Below are positions 50,213-57,855 of a DNA stretch of 64,000 nt, piece by piece. A program made the position numbers and the translations under genes. The stretch lies in the NCBI RefSeq assembly GCF_002706795.1, contig NZ_CP017705.1, positions 5,183,501-5,247,500 on the forward strand, in the 5' to 3' direction. How positions within the stretch are numbered: position 1 is the first letter of the stretch; every line of letters starts with the position of its first letter. The notes under the pieces were generated by a model. It did no database searches. It saw only the letters and a list, made by a program, of their open reading frames with translations, and was not told the DNA's origin. The DNA comes from Brevibacillus laterosporus DSM 25. GTDB lineage: Bacteria; Bacillota; Bacilli; Brevibacillales; Brevibacillaceae.

Positions 50213-50863
50213 AGAAACTGTATTATCGGCGATCTAATTGGGAGAACACTTGAAATTACTTTTGGAGATGAGGAAAATGACAAAATTAGATTTAATGTTA
50301 AGTTGAATGGAAAACAAGTATATCCAGCCACAGGATTTACTGACCTCTATTTCACTCCTTATAAATTCCAAACCACACTTAATTCTGAAGATATCGTTAT
50401 TGGCTCCACCAACACTATAGAAATTAATGCAGAAGATGAATACGGTAGTCCTAATACATATGTGTATAGTTGGATTGGCGACTATATCGGGTTGATGTTT
50501 TCTGATGAAAAGGGAAAATACTACTCAACTGACGCTGGTGAAGTACTCCAATATCTTAGCTTTGGCTCTATCATTGCAGGACAAACAACCCTCCCTGTTA
50601 AAGTTAACTTAACAAATAAAGAAGGAATGGATATTAAGAACCTAAAAGTTGAGTTGCACGCTCCTATATATCATCAAACTCAAATTCAATTATCCAAAAC
50701 GGAAAATTCTTTTATTCCTGAACAAGTGCTAACCTTCACAGATATTCAAAAGAGAGATGAGAACGTATCTTTTTATGTGCGGATTGTAACTAATGCAGAT
50801 GATGTCGCTCACTCTGGTGAATTTAATATTTATGTAGAAGCTGTACCTGCCTCTGAAAGTTAA
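50213..50863 (+). pseudogene. Phage structural protein fragment
   Basis: Continuous plus-strand coding from CIIGDLIGRTLEITFGDEEN through 50863, but with no proper start. The nearest initiator is TTG 50303, inside the fold and without a ribosome site. The sequence is beta-rich, as in tail or baseplate-associated proteins (KVNLTNKEGMDIKNLKVEL). The same frame style continues in the neighbouring genes. It is likely the C-terminal part of the gene begun at 50036, or of a relative, separated by a short insertion or recombination. Confidence 0.5.
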
Positions 50864-50894
50864 TTTTCAATACAATGAGAAGGTGTGATTATAT

Positions 50895-51557
50895 TTGAAC
50901 AATACATATGAAGGGGAAGTTTTCTGTATGGGGGTTTAGGCAGCCTACCATTCCTGCCTCTATAAGTATCCCTATTTAAATCATTTTTCAGCTTCTATTA
51001 CAATAACTCCTAAAAACAAAATGGCAGGTCGTTTTGAAACGATTGAGCGACCATTAGAGATTCACGAATTAGCATCCATTAAAGACAGTACAATTCGTGA
51101 GGGTATTCCTACTCTTAGCTATGGCTCAGATCCTAGTATGCTAATTGGTAGGACTAATTCAGAGCGCTTTCGTGGATTGGTTGAATTTGATTTATCTAAG
51201 CTACCCAAAGGAAAAGAATTAAAACGAGCTAAGTTAAAGCTTTACTGTGGATACTTAGAATCGCCCATTAATCTTGCTTTGTTTGAAATTCTCGATGATT
51301 GGCGAGAACATGACGTAACATGGAGTAATCAGCCACCTCAAGGTAGAAAGATAACTGAGAAGTACATTACTCATGCTGATGGATATATTGAAATTGATGT
51401 CTTCTCTTTAGTTAAAGAATGGTATGAAGGAAAAACACCCAATCATGGTGTTTTTTTATTTGCAGAGGAACAAAATGAGCAATCAACTATTCAGCTACAA
51501 ACAAGGGAATCGTCCACTCCCCCTATATTAGAAGTAGGGTTTTATAAGCTTATATGA
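50895..51557 (+). pseudogene. DNRLRE-domain phage structural protein, disrupted 5' end
   Basis: A TTG at 50895 behind AAGGTG starts LNNTYEGEVF, but TAG follows after 14 codons. The same frame resumes as a 178-codon ORF (51021-51557) with a DNRLRE/CBM96-type domain: SERFRGLVEFDLSKLPKG, ELKRAKLKLYCG and DVTWSNQPP. Around the TAG, the shifted frame reads YGGLGSLPFLP, suggesting compensating small indels. Such domains occur in large minor structural proteins of Bacillales prophages. Confidence 0.6.
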
Positions 51558-52336
51558 AGTTTAGCTTTAGGAAAATTACCAGCAACTTTATCTATACGTG
51601 CTAACGGTGAGGACATCCTAGCTGCTTCCATTAATGTAAACAGCAAATACAAAACAAAAGACTTAATTCTCAACTATCTATTTTAAGAAAATCGGTAGAC
51701 ACTGAGCTAAACTGCTCAATGGATGTAGTAGGCAAACGAAACAATTCAATGTCGGCTTTCATGTCTATTGAGAAGAAATCCGAAGAAGCTACAATTCCTG
51801 CTAAACTTACAGTAAGAAGATTAGAAAATTCATCTATATTAGGTTCAATAACCATTGAGAAAAAACCACGTATGAGCCAGTTAGATGCTTCATTGACTGT
51901 ACGTGTAGCAAAGCATTAAGGGTTATTCTCCAATCTGAGCATTGAGAAAAAAGAACGTTTTAAACAACTACGTGCAAACATTAGAGTTGCTTATGCAAAG
52001 AATTTGCCATCTACCTTTAGTATTGAGAAGAAGGAAAGAAATCGTGATCTTACATGTTCATTGACTGTTCGACAACGAGAAAAAAATAAACTTGGTGGCT
52101 CATCAAGGAAGTTTTTCTCTAGCCAAATGGTTGTTTGACATGTTAGGGATTTTCCTTGTAGTATTCAAGTCAACTCAGGATTCTTAAATGCAGAAATCAA
52201 AGTTAGAGGATACCGTGATGTAAAAATTCCAGCTAGAATTACGGTAAGGGTAAGAAGAATTAGTGACATGCATGCGAGGATTACAGTAAGGAATCTAAAA
52301 TATGATGCAGATGCTGGCTATGTATTTATTTTGTAG
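51558..52336 (+). pseudogene. Decayed phage protein with tandem short beta repeats
   Basis: In two plus-strand frames with several stops, units of roughly 16-20 residues recur with cores such as AKLTVRR, ASLTVRV, CSLTVRQ, ARITVRV and ARITVRN, alternating with SITIEKK, NLSIEKK and TFSIEKK. The array follows directly on the DNRLRE domain and ends at TAG 52334-52336. Stops and frame changes show it is no longer translated as one protein. Confidence 0.6.
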
Positions 52337-52436
52337 GATGATGAGGCTCAGCAAACAACTCATACCCTGTAGGTTGTTATTTTAAAAATAAGGTAAATAT
52401 GTTATTATATTGTAAAGTGTGAAAGGAGGGGTTTAA

Positions 52437-52637: not shown

Positions 52638-53525
52638 CTACAGTTCGTTTATCCCACCGTAAGTACTTCCCTTAACTGTAGACCCTACATAGACCTCAAA
52701 TGTTTCGGTATTTAGGGTGATCCCAAAGTACTTCCACCCTATGATACCCTCTGCTCTTAGTCTTGTGTATACTTCGCAATAGTCATTGTTTTCTTCAGAG
52801 AAGTTTCTTACTTTCCCCAAAGCTCTTTCATCAACAGTTAGTATCGTGCCACCAACATATTTTTTCCAATCTCCATCATTATATACTGCTTTTACTTTTT
52901 TCCCGTCATATTCAAATTGACCTTTTGCCCATACTTCTATAGATTTTAACCCCCAGCCATTATAAAATTCATATCTAGATTCTTTTTTTTCTGTTGTTTT
53001 AGCTTTAGCGCTTGCTTTGACTTCCTTAGTGTTTAACGATGGTTCTTCAATTGTGCTAAGAGATTGAACAATTACCTCACCTGCGTCTCCCACATATACG
53101 ACTAATTCACCATCTTTCTTATTAAAATCAATAAATTGACCATAGCCAGCAGGGCTATTTTGCTTTTCCATAAAATTTCCTACAGAAAAACTTTTTTTAT
53201 TCTTAGCATTATAAAGCTTTAGTGCTTCTGATTTTTCTGGGAAAATATCTTCAACGCTTATAGAAGGACTATTCATCTCTTGGGGTGCTGGAAATTTGTT
53301 GTAGTGTTCCTTAATAACTTTTTCAATTTCTTCAGAGCTTTCTATCTTCTTTGATTTCAATTTTTCCAAATCATGTATAAGCTCGGGAACGTGTTTATCC
53401 ATGTAGTCTTTAACAACTGTAACTGTTTCTTCCTTACTAAGCTCTTTCGCATAGGCTTCAGGAACTATGGAGAAAGTACTCAAAGCTAACATGGTAGACA
53501 GAGCTAAACCTGCCAATTTTTTCAT
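52638..53525 (-). CDS. Secreted protein of unknown function
   Basis: A 295-aa protein starting at ATG behind GGAGGAA. A signal peptide (MKKLAGLALSTMLALSTF, then AYA near residue 26) predicts secretion by the Sec route. The mature part is charged, with a lysine-rich middle and a C-terminal portion rich in aromatic and glycine residues. I see no enzyme motif. It lies downstream of the Spo0E-like gene and the peptide-signalling pair, so it could be an effector under their control. Confidence 0.75.
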   Translation of the reverse strand: MKKLAGLALSTMLALSTFSIVPEAYAKELSKEETVTVVKDYMDKHVPELIHDLEKLKSKKIESSEEIEKVIKEHYNKFPAPQEMNSPSISVEDIFPEKSEALKLYNAKNKKSFSVGNFMEKQNSPAGYGQFIDFNKKDGELVVYVGDAGEVIVQSLSTIEEPSLNTKEVKASAKAKTTEKKESRYEFYNGWGLKSIEVWAKGQFEYDGKKVKAVYNDGDWKKYVGGTILTVDERALGKVRNFSEENNDYCEVYTRLRAEGIIGWKYFGITLNTETFEVYVGSTVKGSTYGGINEL

Positions 53526-53607: not shown

Positions 53608-53808
53608 TCATCTGTCATTTACTTCTGTCAATTTTGTGAGACTAAGCTTTTGAATTGCAACGATGTAATCATCTAGTTGCTGGCTCATTTGAAGTACGGT
53701 TGGGTGTACAAATGAGCCTTCTTTGTAATACAACATCACAAATTCTTGACGGAGGATTTCAATAATTTTTTGTAAATCATTTTCGAGTTGAGAATTTTCT
53801 GTTTTCAT
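53608..53808 (-). CDS. Spo0E-like sporulation phosphatase family protein
   Basis: A 66-aa protein with the family signature SQQLDDYI (S-x-x-L-D-x-x-I) in a two-helix hairpin context. Spo0E-type proteins dephosphorylate Spo0A~P and delay sporulation. Length and motif fit well; the ribosome site is weak. It lies between the XRE-TPR/peptide operon and the secreted-protein gene on the same strand, separated from the peptide gene by a terminator. Confidence 0.78.
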   Translation of the reverse strand: MKTENSQLENDLQKIIEILRQEFVMLYYKEGSFVHPTVLQMSQQLDDYIVAIQKLSLTKLTEVNDR

Positions 53809-53864
53809 ATTCTGTAAGTGAGTGGTAAAATGAACTTGAGTAACATTTTTTGTTGCTCAGGGTG

Positions 53865-53903
53865 GGGGCGTTCCCATTAGTTTGCACACCATAGGAACGC
53901 CCC
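53865..53903. repeat. 10-bp inverted repeat upstream of the Spo0E-like gene
   Basis: GGGGCGTTCC (53865-53874) and GGAACGCCCC (53894-53903) form a GC-rich hairpin in an AT-rich leader, about 55 bp upstream of the Spo0E-like start. On the plus strand a TTTT follows. It could be a terminator, or a leader hairpin controlling the minus-strand gene. Confidence 0.5.
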
Positions 53904-54029
53904 TTTTCGTTGTTGAGCCATATAAATTAAAGATGACACCTCCTTTCTTCCTCCTGGGCATTATTTTACCATCACGTTCTATATTTCCCTAAAAAATACA
54001 TCAAATTGAAACGTTTTACAAATTACGAC

Positions 54030-54060
54030 AAAAAAAAAGAACGCTAATTAATAGCGTTCA
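54030..54060 (-). terminator. Terminator of the regulator-peptide operon
   Basis: GAACGCTA and TAGCGTTC with a short loop, followed on the minus strand by a T9 run. It begins 16 bp after the stop of the 41-aa prepropeptide. Confidence 0.9.
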
Positions 54061-54075
54061 AAAGTAACAAAATTA

Positions 54076-54201
54076 TCAATAGCCCGGGTCATACGCATAC
54101 TGTATTATCTTAGCTTCTGCAACATGAGAGAAAGAATCAATAGAGCCTATAGAAATTACCATTGCTAAAGTCATGAAAATCGTTATAATTGCCTTTTTCA
54201 T
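54076..54201 (-). CDS. Exported 41-aa signalling prepropeptide (Phr/AimP-like)
   Basis: The ATG at 54201 stands 7 nt after AGGAGG, 16 nt after the stop of the XRE-TPR regulator. The product starts MKKAIITIFMTLAMV, a classical signal peptide, has a VAEA site near residue 30 for signal peptidase, and ends KIIQYAYDPGY. This is the layout of RNPP peptides (Phr, PapR, NprX, AimP): a short exported precursor whose last 5-8 residues become the signal. By analogy YAYDPGY or a shorter tail would be imported by an oligopeptide permease and bind the upstream regulator. The mature form is inferred. Confidence 0.75.
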   Translation of the reverse strand: MKKAIITIFMTLAMVISIGSIDSFSHVAEAKIIQYAYDPGY

Positions 54202-54217
54202 CTCAATCCCTCCTATG

Positions 54218-55504
54218 CTAACTAATTATCTTATCCTGCGTAATTCCATTATATACCTTTTGGAGCTTATGTAGCATTTGTAAATCAAGATATTTGTTTT
54301 TGGATATATAAAAATCAAGTATGCTTTCCATACATTGATTAATATCTTGATAAGCATTGATTTTCCCATATGCAGACATGCTGCTAAGGTAACTATCCAA
54401 TCCTTCTTCAAATAATTTAATTAAAATTTGGTAATTCGCTTTATATTGAAAATACAATCCAATTGAATAATATTTATAAGGTGTTTTTGATTCAATTTTC
54501 AAGAAGTTGTCTTCCTGCGCAATTAATTCTGCAATGGAATCAAATTTCCCCATCTCTAAATATAGTTCAAATAATTCATTAACTGCATGAATTTTTGAAC
54601 CCTTGCTGGTGTTTTGTAGACACACAAGTAACAGCGGGATGGCTGTTTCGTATTCCTTTCTTTTCGCCTTTACCATTGCTTGAGTCAATGTAGCTGATTC
54701 ATTGACAAAATGATAATCAAATTCTTTATAGACAGTCAGAAACCTCTCAACTTCATCATAAAACCCTAAAAAATAGAGTGAGTTAATCATTGCTAAATAT
54801 GCTCTAGCTTTTAGCTCTGTATCATTTTTCTCTAATGCAATCCCTGCTTTGCATAGTTCAATACAATCTTTATATTTCTTTATAGCATATGCTTGAAGCC
54901 CCATTCTGAAATATAAAATTATCTTTTCTTCCTCAGATAAAAAATCTACATAATGAATAACTTCTTCGCCAATTTTAAATGACTCCTCCATAGTTTTAAA
55001 ATCTTGTCTTTCAATTAGGTATTTTTGCAGGGACGATTTGGCTATGTACATGGGAATACCGTGTCCTCTTGCATATTTAATAATTGTATTGTATAACGAC
55101 AGTCTAACTTCATTGTTTACAGTTTTATTAGCCAGCCTATGTACATGCTCTAATAGTACATATGTTTCTTCTTTAGAATTTTCAAGGAATTTCGTTGCCA
55201 CCTTAGTCATCAGAGAAGGGTTTGAGACTTCAATGCACAACTGTAATATATCATCCAAGACTTCGATCCGATGTTCTATTTCAACATAGCGTTCGATGAT
55301 CTCTTCATAGGGGATTTCTAAAACATCTGCAATCGGTTTTAATGTCCGAAGCTCTGGGCGTTTCGTTTCTCCAGATTCAATCTTCGATAAGACCCCTTTA
55401 CTAACTCCTGACAGTCTTCCCAATTCTGATAAGCTAATCCCCATCCCTACTCTTTTCCCCTTTATCAGTTCCCCCAATGTTGTGAAAGTTAGACTCACAC
55501 TCAT
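54218..55504 (-). CDS. XRE-TPR transcriptional regulator of the RNPP type
   Basis: A 428-aa protein. Residues about 8-65 form a Cro/C1-type helix-turn-helix (SLSELGRLSGVSKGVLSKIE). The rest is an all-helical array with TPR-like pairs (for example LYFRMGLQAYAIKKYKDCI, LKARAYLAMINSLYFLGFY), as in PlcR, NprR and AimR receptors. It starts at ATG behind GGAAGGGG. The peptide gene follows at once and shares a terminator, so receptor and signal are probably cotranscribed. Its location between phage structural and lysis genes recalls arbitrium systems, but chromosomal RNPP regulators look alike and the regulated genes are unknown. Confidence 0.82.
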   Translation of the reverse strand: MSVSLTFTTLGELIKGKRVGMGISLSELGRLSGVSKGVLSKIESGETKRPELRTLKPIADVLEIPYEEIIERYVEIEHRIEVLDDILQLCIEVSNPSLMTKVATKFLENSKEETYVLLEHVHRLANKTVNNEVRLSLYNTIIKYARGHGIPMYIAKSSLQKYLIERQDFKTMEESFKIGEEVIHYVDFLSEEEKIILYFRMGLQAYAIKKYKDCIELCKAGIALEKNDTELKARAYLAMINSLYFLGFYDEVERFLTVYKEFDYHFVNESATLTQAMVKAKRKEYETAIPLLLVCLQNTSKGSKIHAVNELFELYLEMGKFDSIAELIAQEDNFLKIESKTPYKYYSIGLYFQYKANYQILIKLFEEGLDSYLSSMSAYGKINAYQDINQCMESILDFYISKNKYLDLQMLHKLQKVYNGITQDKIIS

Positions 55505-55564
55505 GTTAATCCCCTTCCATAATTTATAAATAATATCATTGCATCCTTTATTAGTCTTAACTTA

Positions 55565-55593
55565 ATTCTAACTTTATTGTATTTTTTTGTAAA
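55565..55593 (-). promoter_or_regulatory. Candidate promoter of the XRE-TPR regulator
   Basis: TTTACA (55593-55588) and TAGAAT (55570-55565) lie 17 nt apart on the minus strand, about 60 nt upstream of the regulator start. Confidence 0.5.
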
Positions 55594-55764
55594 TAACAAT
55601 AAAAATTATTGGATTAAATAATTTTATTTATTTTTTAAAACAAGAAAGGTGATCTTCAAATTTTAAATTCAAAACCAAGTAAATCCATTCCTATTCGTTG
55701 GAAAGGGGGTTAGTCAATTTATGCTCATTCGACAAACGACTCTATGTTGAAAGGAACTGCTACC

Positions 55765-56151
55765 ATGTCCAGTAATCAAGTTTTAGAAGTGAAAATTGAG
55801 AATTTACACAGAGAACTTAACTCTTTCAAAGAAGAGACAAAAGAAGATATTCGAGATATTAATTTAAGCATTAAACAAAGTGAGAAACTTTTTAATGATG
55901 CTATTGTGACCATGACCGAAAACATTACCAAACTAACTACTATTGCTGACCAGCAACGTGAAGAGATGCGACAACAACGTGAGGAAATTAGGTTAATTCG
56001 AGAATCTAAATCTTCTGAGACAAAAATCTCTCAAGGCAATGATGAAAAAAAATGGTATCAAGAAACCACTAATAAATTGATTATGCTAATTGGTTTAATC
56101 CTCTGTGTATTACTCGGTTTGAATGCATCTGCTGTTAATTTTTTGAAATAA
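55765..56151 (+). CDS. XhlA-like phage lysis accessory protein
   Basis: A 128-aa protein with a long coiled-coil rich in Glu, Arg and Gln (EEMRQQREEIRLIRE) and one C-terminal membrane span (LIMLIGLILCVLLGL). This fits the haemolysin XhlA family that precedes endolysin genes in Bacillus prophages such as PBSX. ATG at 55765 is preferred: AAAGGA lies 9 nt upstream, whereas the ATG at 55744 lies upstream of it. The endolysin start follows 16 nt after its stop. Confidence 0.7.
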   Translation: MSSNQVLEVKIENLHRELNSFKEETKEDIRDINLSIKQSEKLFNDAIVTMTENITKLTTIADQQREEMRQQREEIRLIRESKSSETKISQGNDEKKWYQETTNKLIMLIGLILCVLLGLNASAVNFLK

Positions 56152-56167
56152 CTGGAGGCGATTATAT

Positions 56168-56944
56168 TTGAAAATGATTGAAAAACTACTTACCCCTAAC
56201 GACTACGCCAGACCTCGTTTAAAAGTAAAAACGATCAAAGGAATTGTCATACACTGGGTAGCTGCACCCATGCAAAAGGCAATTAATACATGGGGATTTT
56301 TTGAGATTCGTAAATTTGGAAAAACAAACTATGGATCAGCTCACTACATTATAGATTTAAATGGTGATATTTTAAGATGCGTTCCTGAAAATGAAATGGC
56401 TTATCACGTAGGTTCAACTACATACACTACTTCTGCTTTGAAACGTTTAAGTACATATCCTAACAACTGCACGATTGGCACTGAATGTAATCATATAGAT
56501 ATGGGTGGGAAGATGACTTCTAAAACTTATCAATCTCTTTTAGATTTCTGTGTACAGCTATTAAAGCGATATAACCTAACTGAAAATGATCTTTGGCTAC
56601 ATAAGGAAGTTGTTGGCTGGAAGGATTGTCACCGATGGTTTGTAAATAATCCTGATGAGTGGGCTTTGTTTAAAGAGAAAGTTGGACAAGAATTACACGG
56701 TGACACTTCTAAAAATACAGAAAATATTACAAAAGAAAAGGTGGTATATATCATGTCAAAATATTTTAAAGACATTCCTGAAAAGATGAAATGGGTTTCT
56801 GATCCGGCAGATCGTTTGTATGAGAAAGGCATTGTACTTGGAGATGAGAAAGGCAATTTACATCCAGATAAGCCAGCAACTCGTGCTGAGGTAATCTCTT
56901 TTATTGATCGAGCAGTTGAATATGTTCTGAAAGAAGTTAAATAA
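56168..56944 (+). CDS. Phage endolysin: N-acetylmuramoyl-L-alanine amidase with SLH domain
   Basis: A 258-aa protein starting at TTG, 9 nt after GGAGG. Residues about 15-175 form a type 2 amidase domain: VIHWVAA (first zinc His), GSAHYIIDLNGDI and the distal site LHKEVVGWKDCHRWF. A linker follows, then a single S-layer homology repeat (FKDIPEKMKWVSDPADRLY to PATRAEVISFIDRA) instead of the LysM or SH3 domain common in Bacillus phage lysins. The SLH domain should target secondary cell-wall polymer. It is the second gene of the lysis cassette. Confidence 0.88.
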   Translation: MKMIEKLLTPNDYARPRLKVKTIKGIVIHWVAAPMQKAINTWGFFEIRKFGKTNYGSAHYIIDLNGDILRCVPENEMAYHVGSTTYTTSALKRLSTYPNNCTIGTECNHIDMGGKMTSKTYQSLLDFCVQLLKRYNLTENDLWLHKEVVGWKDCHRWFVNNPDEWALFKEKVGQELHGDTSKNTENITKEKVVYIMSKYFKDIPEKMKWVSDPADRLYEKGIVLGDEKGNLHPDKPATRAEVISFIDRAVEYVLKEVK

Positions 56945-56970
56945 GAAAGCAAAAATGTAAAAAGAAGTAT

Positions 56971-57258
56971 GATAAAATAAGTATTTTATTAGGTCAAATC
57001 ATACTAGATGTAGCTCATCTTCTACTGTTAGCAGTAGGAACATGGGCTATTTTTTATTTAGTTAAGTTTCTCAAAGGTAAAATCAAAAAAGAGCATGCAC
57101 TACGTGCTGTGCAATACGTAGAGCAAGCCTTTGTTCATTTAAAAGGTTCTCGCTAGTATGGATCGAAAAAAATTAAAGTAACCGATGAGGAAGTTAAAGG
57201 ATTGATTGAATCTACTCTTCATGAATGGAAAAATGAATTGAACAAACAAATGAAGTAA
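56971..57258 (+). pseudogene. LLH-type phage holin, start lost and amber-interrupted
   Basis: One frame reads from DKISILLGQIILDVAHLLLL through a membrane span (LLAVGTWAIFYLVKFL), HALRAVQYVEQAFVHLKGSR, a TAG at 57154, then KIKVTDEEVKGLIESTL and a stop at 57256. The order of span, VEQ helix and liE helix fits the LLH holin family. No start codon is in frame upstream. The loss of holin suggests the prophage is defective. Confidence 0.65.
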
Positions 57259-57324: not shown

Positions 57325-57855
57325 CTTATCCAAAGCTTCATGATTCAAACTGGTGATCCAACTAGTCGGGGCGATAACAATACCGTAGCAGATCCAACAG
57401 AACGGCCGATTCAAGTAGGGGAATTACTACTAATCGATGCTGGGGTTTTTGTGAGTAGATATGTCTCTGATCTGACAAGAACGTTTGCTGTTGGAAAAAT
57501 AAATCATGTACTTGAAGATATGTATGAGAGCGTCCTACAGGCTAATCTTCGGGCCATTGAAACTGTTCGTCCCCATACGCCTATCGCTAGTGTTGATCTA
57601 GCAGCCCGTGACATCATTGAAAACAAAGGATATGGAGAATATTTTATTAATCGTGTAGGCCATGGTATTGGCTTAGAAATTCATGAATATCCCTCAGTTC
57701 ACAGTAAAGCGCAGGGCGACCTTCAGGAGGGGATGGTTTTTACTATCGAACCAGGAATCTATAATCCACGCATAGGTGGGGTTCGTATTGAGGATGATGT
57801 ACTAGTGACAGAAAACGGAGTCGAAGTATTAACTACCTTCCCTAAGGGCTGCTAA
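57325..57855 (+). pseudogene. C-terminal fragment of an M24 (Xaa-Pro) peptidase
   Basis: About 175 codons match the catalytic pita-bread domain of PepQ-like peptidases. The metal ligands are present: Asp in LLIDAG, Asp in SDLTRT, His in GHGIGLE, Glu in TIEPGI and Glu in RIEDD. The N-terminal creatinase-like domain and the front of the catalytic domain are missing, and no ribosome site precedes the first ATG (57340). It directly follows the phage lysis terminator, so it may mark a deletion or integration boundary. Confidence 0.75.

Follow-up and report, generated by a model that had tools for sequence, protein, structure and literature searches.

The locus studied here raises the question of what an RNPP-type receptor and its propeptide control from within a prophage remnant. 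The window, by which we mean the whole stretch of 64,000 nucleotides from Brevibacillus laterosporus DSM 25 that was analysed, had been described from its sequence as holding an XRE regulator, a 16-nt gap and a 41-aa propeptide with a VAEA site and the tail IIQYAYDPGY, and all of these were recovered (Table 1). That an RNPP-type receptor/propeptide pair lies in a prophage remnant stands; that the pair stands alone, and that it resembles arbitrium, is not supported. The preliminary description did not include the spo0E gene downstream, a 76-nt element, or the paralogues present at about 14 loci of this genome.

Table 1. Features of the cassette and its surroundings, numbered from the first nucleotide of the window.
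Feature	Position	Strand	Basis or remark
Secreted 295-aa protein	52638-53525	-	ORF
Spo0E-family phosphatase, 66 aa, predicted target	53608-53808	-	PF09388, 40.5 bits (cut-off 23)
Possible leader ORF MLLKFILPLTYRI	53805-53846	-	Sequence reading; stop overlaps the spo0E ATG
Putative antisense promoter, extended -10 TGGTAAAAT	53823-53831	+	TTTTCA at 53802-53807, spacer 18
Two-hairpin element, about 76 nt, proposed convergent antisense RNA	53836-53911	+	Ends in hairpin and U-run
Presumed 5' end of the spo0E mRNA, with AGGAGGAAGAAAGGAGG	53939-53955	-	Sequence reading
Extended -10 of the spo0E promoter, TGGTAAAAT	53963-53971	-	Motif scan
Conserved upstream element TTGTCGTAATTTGTAAAACGTTTC, candidate receptor operator	54008-54031	-	Intergenic regions, by eye
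Intrinsic terminator of the receptor-peptide operon	54039-54059	-	8 bp stem, tail TTTTTTTTTG
Propeptide ORF, 41 aa, MKKAIITIFMTLAMVISIGSIDSFSHVAEAKIIQYAYDPGY	54076-54201	-	ORF and Shine-Dalgarno (SD) sequence
Receptor/regulator, 428 aa, ATG start	54218-55504	-	XRE helix-turn-helix and C-terminal TPR region
Lysis cassette: holin-like gene and Amidase_2/SLH endolysin	55744-56944	+	Divergent from the pair

The XRE helix-turn-helix of the receptor spans residues ~10-72, and residues 15-69 match Pfam HTH_3 (8.2e-10), which agrees with the canonical XRE domain noted before. In a profile search against PDB chains, family profile positions 5-72 matched the helix-turn-helix domains of SinR and repressors, and positions 196-297 matched consensus TPR proteins (1.4e-19); among the 60 of 129 PDB matches listed, there was no known RRNPP receptor. 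A helix-turn-helix plus TPR architecture is predicted, the TPR fold being based on the profile matches. The propeptide ATG lies 16 nt past the receptor stop, with AGGAGGGATTGAG as its SD sequence, and the product consists of a Sec-type signal sequence up to VAEA, followed by the tail. The terminator previously seen after the peptide gene is also present, its stem being followed by nine T.

Relatives of the receptor are abundant. The receptor search found 21 matching pieces from about 15 loci in the window's own genome, a single contig of 5.4 Mb, and matches at E ≤ 0.001 in 41 of 59 genomes, its own included, the weakest of them probably reflecting the helix-turn-helix only. Further relatives occur in the phages Sundance, SecTim467 and Jenst (five records of three Brevibacillus phages, the Jenst copy being partial), in two IMG/VR contigs and in seven plasmid records. 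Judging by these matches, the receptor belongs to a family expanded in Brevibacillus chromosomes, plasmids and phages. The receptor set comprised 110 non-identical rows from the own genome, relatives, phages and plasmids, including four partial rows that duplicate genes of the own genome. By a simple charge and hydrophobicity rule made for this analysis, and not SignalP, a signal-peptide-like ORF was found at the receptor stop in 101 of the 110 rows. Conservation of the small ORF beside homologous regulators, a check suggested in the preliminary description, was examined in this set and holds: an ORF of this kind, preceded by an SD-like run of 4 bases or more, was present in 96/110 rows, against 2/119 control ORFs (other ORFs of at least 150 aa, from the window and 13 own-genome loci). 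Both groups were put to the same test. The small ORF beside the receptor is not there by chance.

When no SD was required and the four partial rows were dropped together with receptors shorter than 400 residues, a peptide was called after 96 of 105 receptors. The commonest last four residues of these 96 tails were DPGH (20), DPGY (16), EPDW (10) and PEPW (9); position -3 was P in 80 and the final residue W, H, Y or F in 81. The tail of the window propeptide recurs identically in another strain (L045). A short secreted peptide adjoining an XRE protein could also be a toxin or bacteriocin-like product with the XRE protein as its repressor or antidote, but the TPR profile, the short tail motif conserved at the frequencies just given, the link to spo0E and the parallel with AloR/AloP make this reading scarcely credible.

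The location between phage structural and lysis genes was likewise borne out. Tail-like genes flank the pair on one side, and holin-like and amidase/endolysin genes on the other (the endolysin by Pfam and PHROGs, the holin-like gene by eye only). In L200, an IMG/VR contig of 57 kb, the order of tail genes, cassette, holin-like gene and endolysin is the same, and window positions 50222-52340 and 54780-57258 have matches of 88-90% there. The tail gene of the window is in pieces of 178 and 66 aa, compared with 484 aa in L200, so the term prophage remnant is right. The TerL family PF20441 had no match in three phage records. Transcription of the cassette opposes the late genes, as that of a moron would, and in our best model the module is one, inserted between the genes for tail and lysis. 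An N-terminally short gene for an M24 peptidase, Xaa-Pro dipeptidase-like (57340-57855), adjoins the phage lysis genes and was possibly cut by the prophage insertion.

In arbitrium, AimR-AimP, a phage-carried receptor is followed by a short secreted peptide, and the window pair shares both traits. An arbitrium-like peptide would gauge phage density and set lysis versus lysogeny, for which the prophage location and the relatives in three phages and two IMG/VR contigs could be cited. Unlike arbitrium, however, the window pair does not lie in a lysogeny module, its receptor has a canonical XRE domain, and a bacterial-type predicted target gene adjoins it: of the genes running in its direction, the closest is spo0E, which is not a phage gene. 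In L200 the cassette is at 1.8-4.5 kb and the integrase matches are at 28.9 and 49.2 kb, more than 24 kb away on what may be an incomplete contig. In another strain (L214, in genome G004), a pair with the identical tail and a receptor of 93% identity adjoins an alanine-racemase-like gene, and no phage-like gene was recognised by eye among its neighbouring ORFs of at least 100 aa. The roughly 14 paralogue loci in the chromosome also speak against a phage-density signal. We therefore rejected arbitrium on location, target and the near-identical pair outside a recognisable prophage, and consider it very improbable.

The gene behind the pair is the predicted target. Using an HMM seeded with eight such genes, we found a Spo0E-like sequence within 900 nt downstream in 26 of the 110 receptor rows, or 23 distinct loci after dropping three duplicate rows. 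The own genome has 12 PF09388 matches, six of which lie directly behind a pair (P1, P4, P5, P7, P8 and P14). Three of the six, P7, P8 and P14, have a broken receptor; in P7 a TAA also interrupts spo0E, and the spo0E of P8 is short. Annotation likewise places a Spo0E behind the pair in phages Sundance and SecTim467 and in plasmids CP139434, NZ_CP020558 and NZ_CP106993. A spo0E-like gene is directly downstream in part of the window's family, as it is in part of the AloR systems.

The several paralogues that are split or carry stops, and the broken tail gene of the prophage, would fit a decaying, non-functional relic like many copies in the own genome. Yet in the window the receptor, propeptide, terminator, promoter-like boxes, two-hairpin element and spo0E are all uninterrupted, and a second strain, whose receptor is 93% identical, has retained this tail, which makes decay an improbable account of this copy.

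Upstream of spo0E, an extended -10 was found by motif scan and no -35 by consensus scan, a combination that suits an activator. The conserved upstream element follows the pattern TTGTCG-N-AATTT...AACGTTTC, whose exact form occurs at three places in the genome (the window locus, P11 and a relic), and it is the best candidate for the operator of the receptor. It overlaps a near Spo0A-box (TGTCGAA), so binding of Spo0A at this element would be an alternative. At the presumed start of the spo0E mRNA, GAAAGGAGG inside AGGAGGAAGAAAGGAGG resembles the mRNA stabiliser STAB-SD. The spo0E gene of the window has no SD sequence directly before its ATG. Besides the possible leader ORF of Table 1, a second possible leader ORF on the spo0E strand, of the GVPxxxKLxGTPPP type, can be read from the sense strand of hairpin 1; the two may be coding or a by-product of the proposed antisense RNA. 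The gene for the 295-aa protein, which has no Pfam or NCBIfam family above cut-off and none in PHROGs, probably shares a transcript with spo0E.

Between the pair and spo0E lies the two-hairpin element, which was identified by inspection before spo0E in 12 of the 23 Spo0E-linked loci, in addition to split or relic copies. Phage SecTim467 and the Paenibacillus plasmids gave no match at its place to R1, our model of the element. An alignment of 21 sequences on the strand opposite to spo0E (A4) was compared with shuffled alignments; L107, a member of the sense alignment (A3), was excluded from A4, its opposing -10 not fitting. In A4 the two helices are paired in 96.6% of 357 cells, compared with 42-57% for slid versions. 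Cells with a double change numbered 14 against a shuffled mean of 4.2 (0/500 shuffles), covariation was 0.255 against 0.193, sd 0.010 (0/500), and two of the five measures were weak, with 5 pairs showing a double change against 2.8 (21/500) and 17 further pair types against 15.2 (61/500); related sequences may also exceed shuffles without any structure.

Which strand carries the structure was approached through wobble pairs, folding and promoters. On the antisense strand (A4), 32 G-U cells occur at 11 of 17 pair positions and 5 A-C cells at 4 of 17, with sense-type wobbles in five sequences, and the related sequences are not independent of one another; in the sense alignment A3 there are 34 antisense-type against 13 sense-type wobble cells. 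Both strands fold far better than shuffles (z -5.45 for antisense and -6.16 for sense; -5.1 to -6.2 for both strands of the four loci folded), so folding alone does not pick the strand. By eye, a TGNTANAAT box, an extended -10 pointing into the element, is present in 21 of 22 loci. This opposing -10 varies among TANAAT boxes (TGATATAAT, TGTTATAAT, TGGTATAAT, TGATACAAT, TGGTACAAT and TGGTAGAAT) and overlaps the possible leader ORF. The element starts approximately where the antisense promoter would initiate and usually ends in a GC-rich stem with TTT or more; the antisense U-run is missing in some loci (P4, L078).

The same element could instead be a cis-acting leader of the spo0E mRNA, in which the SD-like 5' end would protect the message and coupled leader ORFs would feed ribosomes to the SD-less spo0E. 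The position of AGGAGGAAGAAAGGAGG at the 5' end, the sense fold and the overlap of the MLLKFILPLTYRI stop with the spo0E ATG, with similar ORFs in other MKTENSQ-type loci, agree with such a leader, but it is at odds with the 32 wobble cells that fit the antisense strand compared with 5 for sense, with the variation of the opposing extended -10 among TANAAT boxes and with a first leader ORF that, by eye, has no conserved start codon. We regard a cis leader as possible, if on the whole doubtful. The wobble pattern of the covarying hairpins, the opposing extended -10 and the usual U-tail make a convergent antisense RNA across the leader of spo0E the most likely reading of the element.

The element appears nearly restricted to these cassettes. 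Rfam gave no gathering-level match in the window, and none of its six matches up to E 1 (L025, L033, L024, L200, L254) lay at the element. Model R1, of which the window locus is part, scores the window element at 88.7 bits. A scan of 59 genomes with R1 at E < 1e-6, above which matches were not counted as members, gave 24 places; three genomes of the window's genus account for all of them, with 11, 10 and 3. Eighteen of these 24 are members of the training alignment. The other six comprise one behind the L100 pair, which is intact (G003 831655), four in apparent relic cassettes, whose Spo0E-like matches were found by HMM (L258, L260) or by eye (L257, L261), and one without a recognisable cassette (L259). 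Weaker matches, up to E 0.01, occur in those three and 12 further genomes. The one of these weaker matches that was inspected (5.6e-4; L263, G000:C1:3877000-3884000) follows a receptor distantly similar to AloR13 (20% over 462 aa, E 1e-22) and a peptide with the tail NGYGEGW, so receptors of more than one type may be served by the element.

Several further observations concern the element and its copies. The loop of hairpin 1 (53865-53903) exists in two orientations, that of the window being roughly the reverse complement of the loop in P7, P8, L046 and L090, and it looks as if it had been flipped between its inverted repeats. Relic spo0E cassettes at G000:C1:2701167, 2705335 and 3706082 have a decayed peptide or spo0E and an intact hairpin element; the relic cassettes show the birth and death of modules within the own genome. 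A second structured-looking element, CTGTACGGnAA...AGCCGT...CAGCT, is found behind spo0E in some cassettes or near R1-like elements. It has seven exact copies (G000:C1 794958, 1168157, 1521702, 1525409, 2931410, 2998970 and 3880122), three of which lie exactly 115 nt from weak R1 matches, and no Rfam match in the sources scanned.

Comparison of closely related receptors revealed a mosaic pattern that breaks around residue 240. The receptors of L086 and L046 share 79-88% of residues 1-240 and 38-48% of residues 241-428 with the window receptor and have different tails; receptors with the same tail type, IQYxYDPG, keep the C-half (residues 241-428), at 93-97% in L045 and 70-73% in the P2 copy (L002). 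DNA matches to L200, L201, L215, L216 and L033 end at 54779-54780. Among 22 receptors with similar helix-turn-helix domains, the partial rank correlation of the tail with the C-half given the N-half was 0.32 (0/300 permutations), and that of the tail with the N-half given the C-half was 0.23. Over all 96 receptors the tail follows the N-half (partial 0.34) better than the C-half (0.16), so co-divergence of C-half and tail is clear only among close relatives. We read this pattern as an apparent exchange of specificity, receptor C-half together with tail, among close relatives and on top of ordinary descent.

Our main reading, to which we give a probability of about 0.7, is that the locus is a mobile RRNPP-type quorum-sensing cassette that controls the sporulation brake spo0E, antisense layer included. 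The propeptide would be exported, cleaved at VAEA and trimmed to its last 5-7 residues, for example YAYDPGY or YDPGY; Opp would bring this processed peptide back into the cell, where the C-terminal TPR half of the receptor would bind it. The peptide-free receptor would activate the spo0E promoter, and Spo0E would then hold Spo0A-P low; where carriers are dense, the peptide would accumulate, spo0E would be turned off and sporulation released. The antisense RNA over the spo0E leader would damp leaky expression of spo0E. The prophage would carry the module as a moron and the count would be of module carriers, so the effect would fall on host sporulation and not on lysis-lysogeny. A broader version, which we hold tentatively and place slightly below an even chance, is a three-layer mobile switch in which Spo0E is gated jointly by the receptor, the peptide and a convergent antisense RNA gene devoted to this task; within the Brevibacillus laterosporus group it would pass between phages, plasmids and chromosomes and diversify by swaps of C-half and propeptide, and module-specific densities, that of the prophage included, would time sporulation.

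That phages steer host sporulation by density signals has been published as a genomic hypothesis, according to the parts of the source considered here (PMC10075063), and no experiment on it was found in the literature searched. The locus is a compact test case, in which receptor, tail peptide and proposed target are defined and the promoter pair is easy to mutate. A real antisense RNA would be an RNA layer new to RRNPP cassettes, for which no description of an antisense or small RNA was recognised in the literature listings searched, and model R1 would then be a sequence signature for genes that such receptors control. The exchange of C-half and tail between close relatives would make it easier to infer from sequence which peptide a receptor recognises.

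As to known systems, RRNPP_detector 'cluster 8' consists of computationally predicted Paenibacillaceae systems, and a plasmid of B. laterosporus LMG 15441 is reported to carry a single cluster-8 system as well as a single AloR-AloP (Bernard et al. 2023, PMC10075063, in the parts considered). On pBRLA33, a pair of the window's family (tail DYDPGY) is directly followed by an AloR relative (tail EHGVGG). The window's family is most likely cluster 8, an assignment made by elimination on pBRLA33 rather than from a member list. The cluster-8 systems are predicted, and the parts of that paper considered here make no mention of antisense RNA; no experiments on the window's receptor family were found in the literature searched. 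The same source describes phage RRNPP pairs beside Spo0E homologues, for which 'sporulation hijacking' was proposed; they share the pair-Spo0E adjacency, and an intervening element goes unmentioned in those parts (PMC10075063).

The experimentally studied pair of like kind that we found is AloR13-AloP13, and Brevibacillus is listed among the AloR carriers (Voichek et al. 2020, PMC7425212, in the parts considered). There, AloR13 of P. polymyxa activates the adjacent spo0E and the peptide SHGRGG shuts spo0E off, as determined in B. subtilis (PMC7425212). Our reference was AloR13 or a near-identical orthologue in a Paenibacillus-type genome (L211), to which the published primer led and whose propeptide tail agrees with the published SYFHNITIGNGSQITVSSHGRGG (PMC7425212); its start codon is TTG where the primer has ATG, and an exact search for the primer in the genome contigs had found no match. 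The window receptor matches AloR13 at 23% over 108 N-terminal aa (E 3.6e-5), and the member of its family closest to AloR13 does so at 28% over 127 aa (7.8e-8), whereas true AloR relatives in Brevibacillus reach 44-45% over 456 aa, and the HMM of the window's receptor family found no match in AloR13. An identity as AloR was ruled out, the likeness to AloR13 being confined to the N-terminal ~110-150 aa. Model R1 had no match in the AloR13-type loci L254-L256. Between aloP13 and spo0E, the leader of L254 carries TGTAAACTAATG, close to TGCAAACTAATG of the window's loop, a likeness that may reflect common origin or chance.

What the window cassette shares with AloR13-AloP13-spo0E is an XRE and TPR receptor, a propeptide of 32-50 aa behind it and spo0E directly downstream, and with AloR systems in general a strong expansion of paralogues; the tails differ, being GRGG/GVGG in AloR systems and DPGY/H in the window's family. 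As a member of a predicted and widely spread RRNPP family, the pair itself is not new in kind. As far as the literature searched tells, what is new is the element with its antisense reading, its near-restriction to the cassette and the mosaic exchange of receptor and tail.
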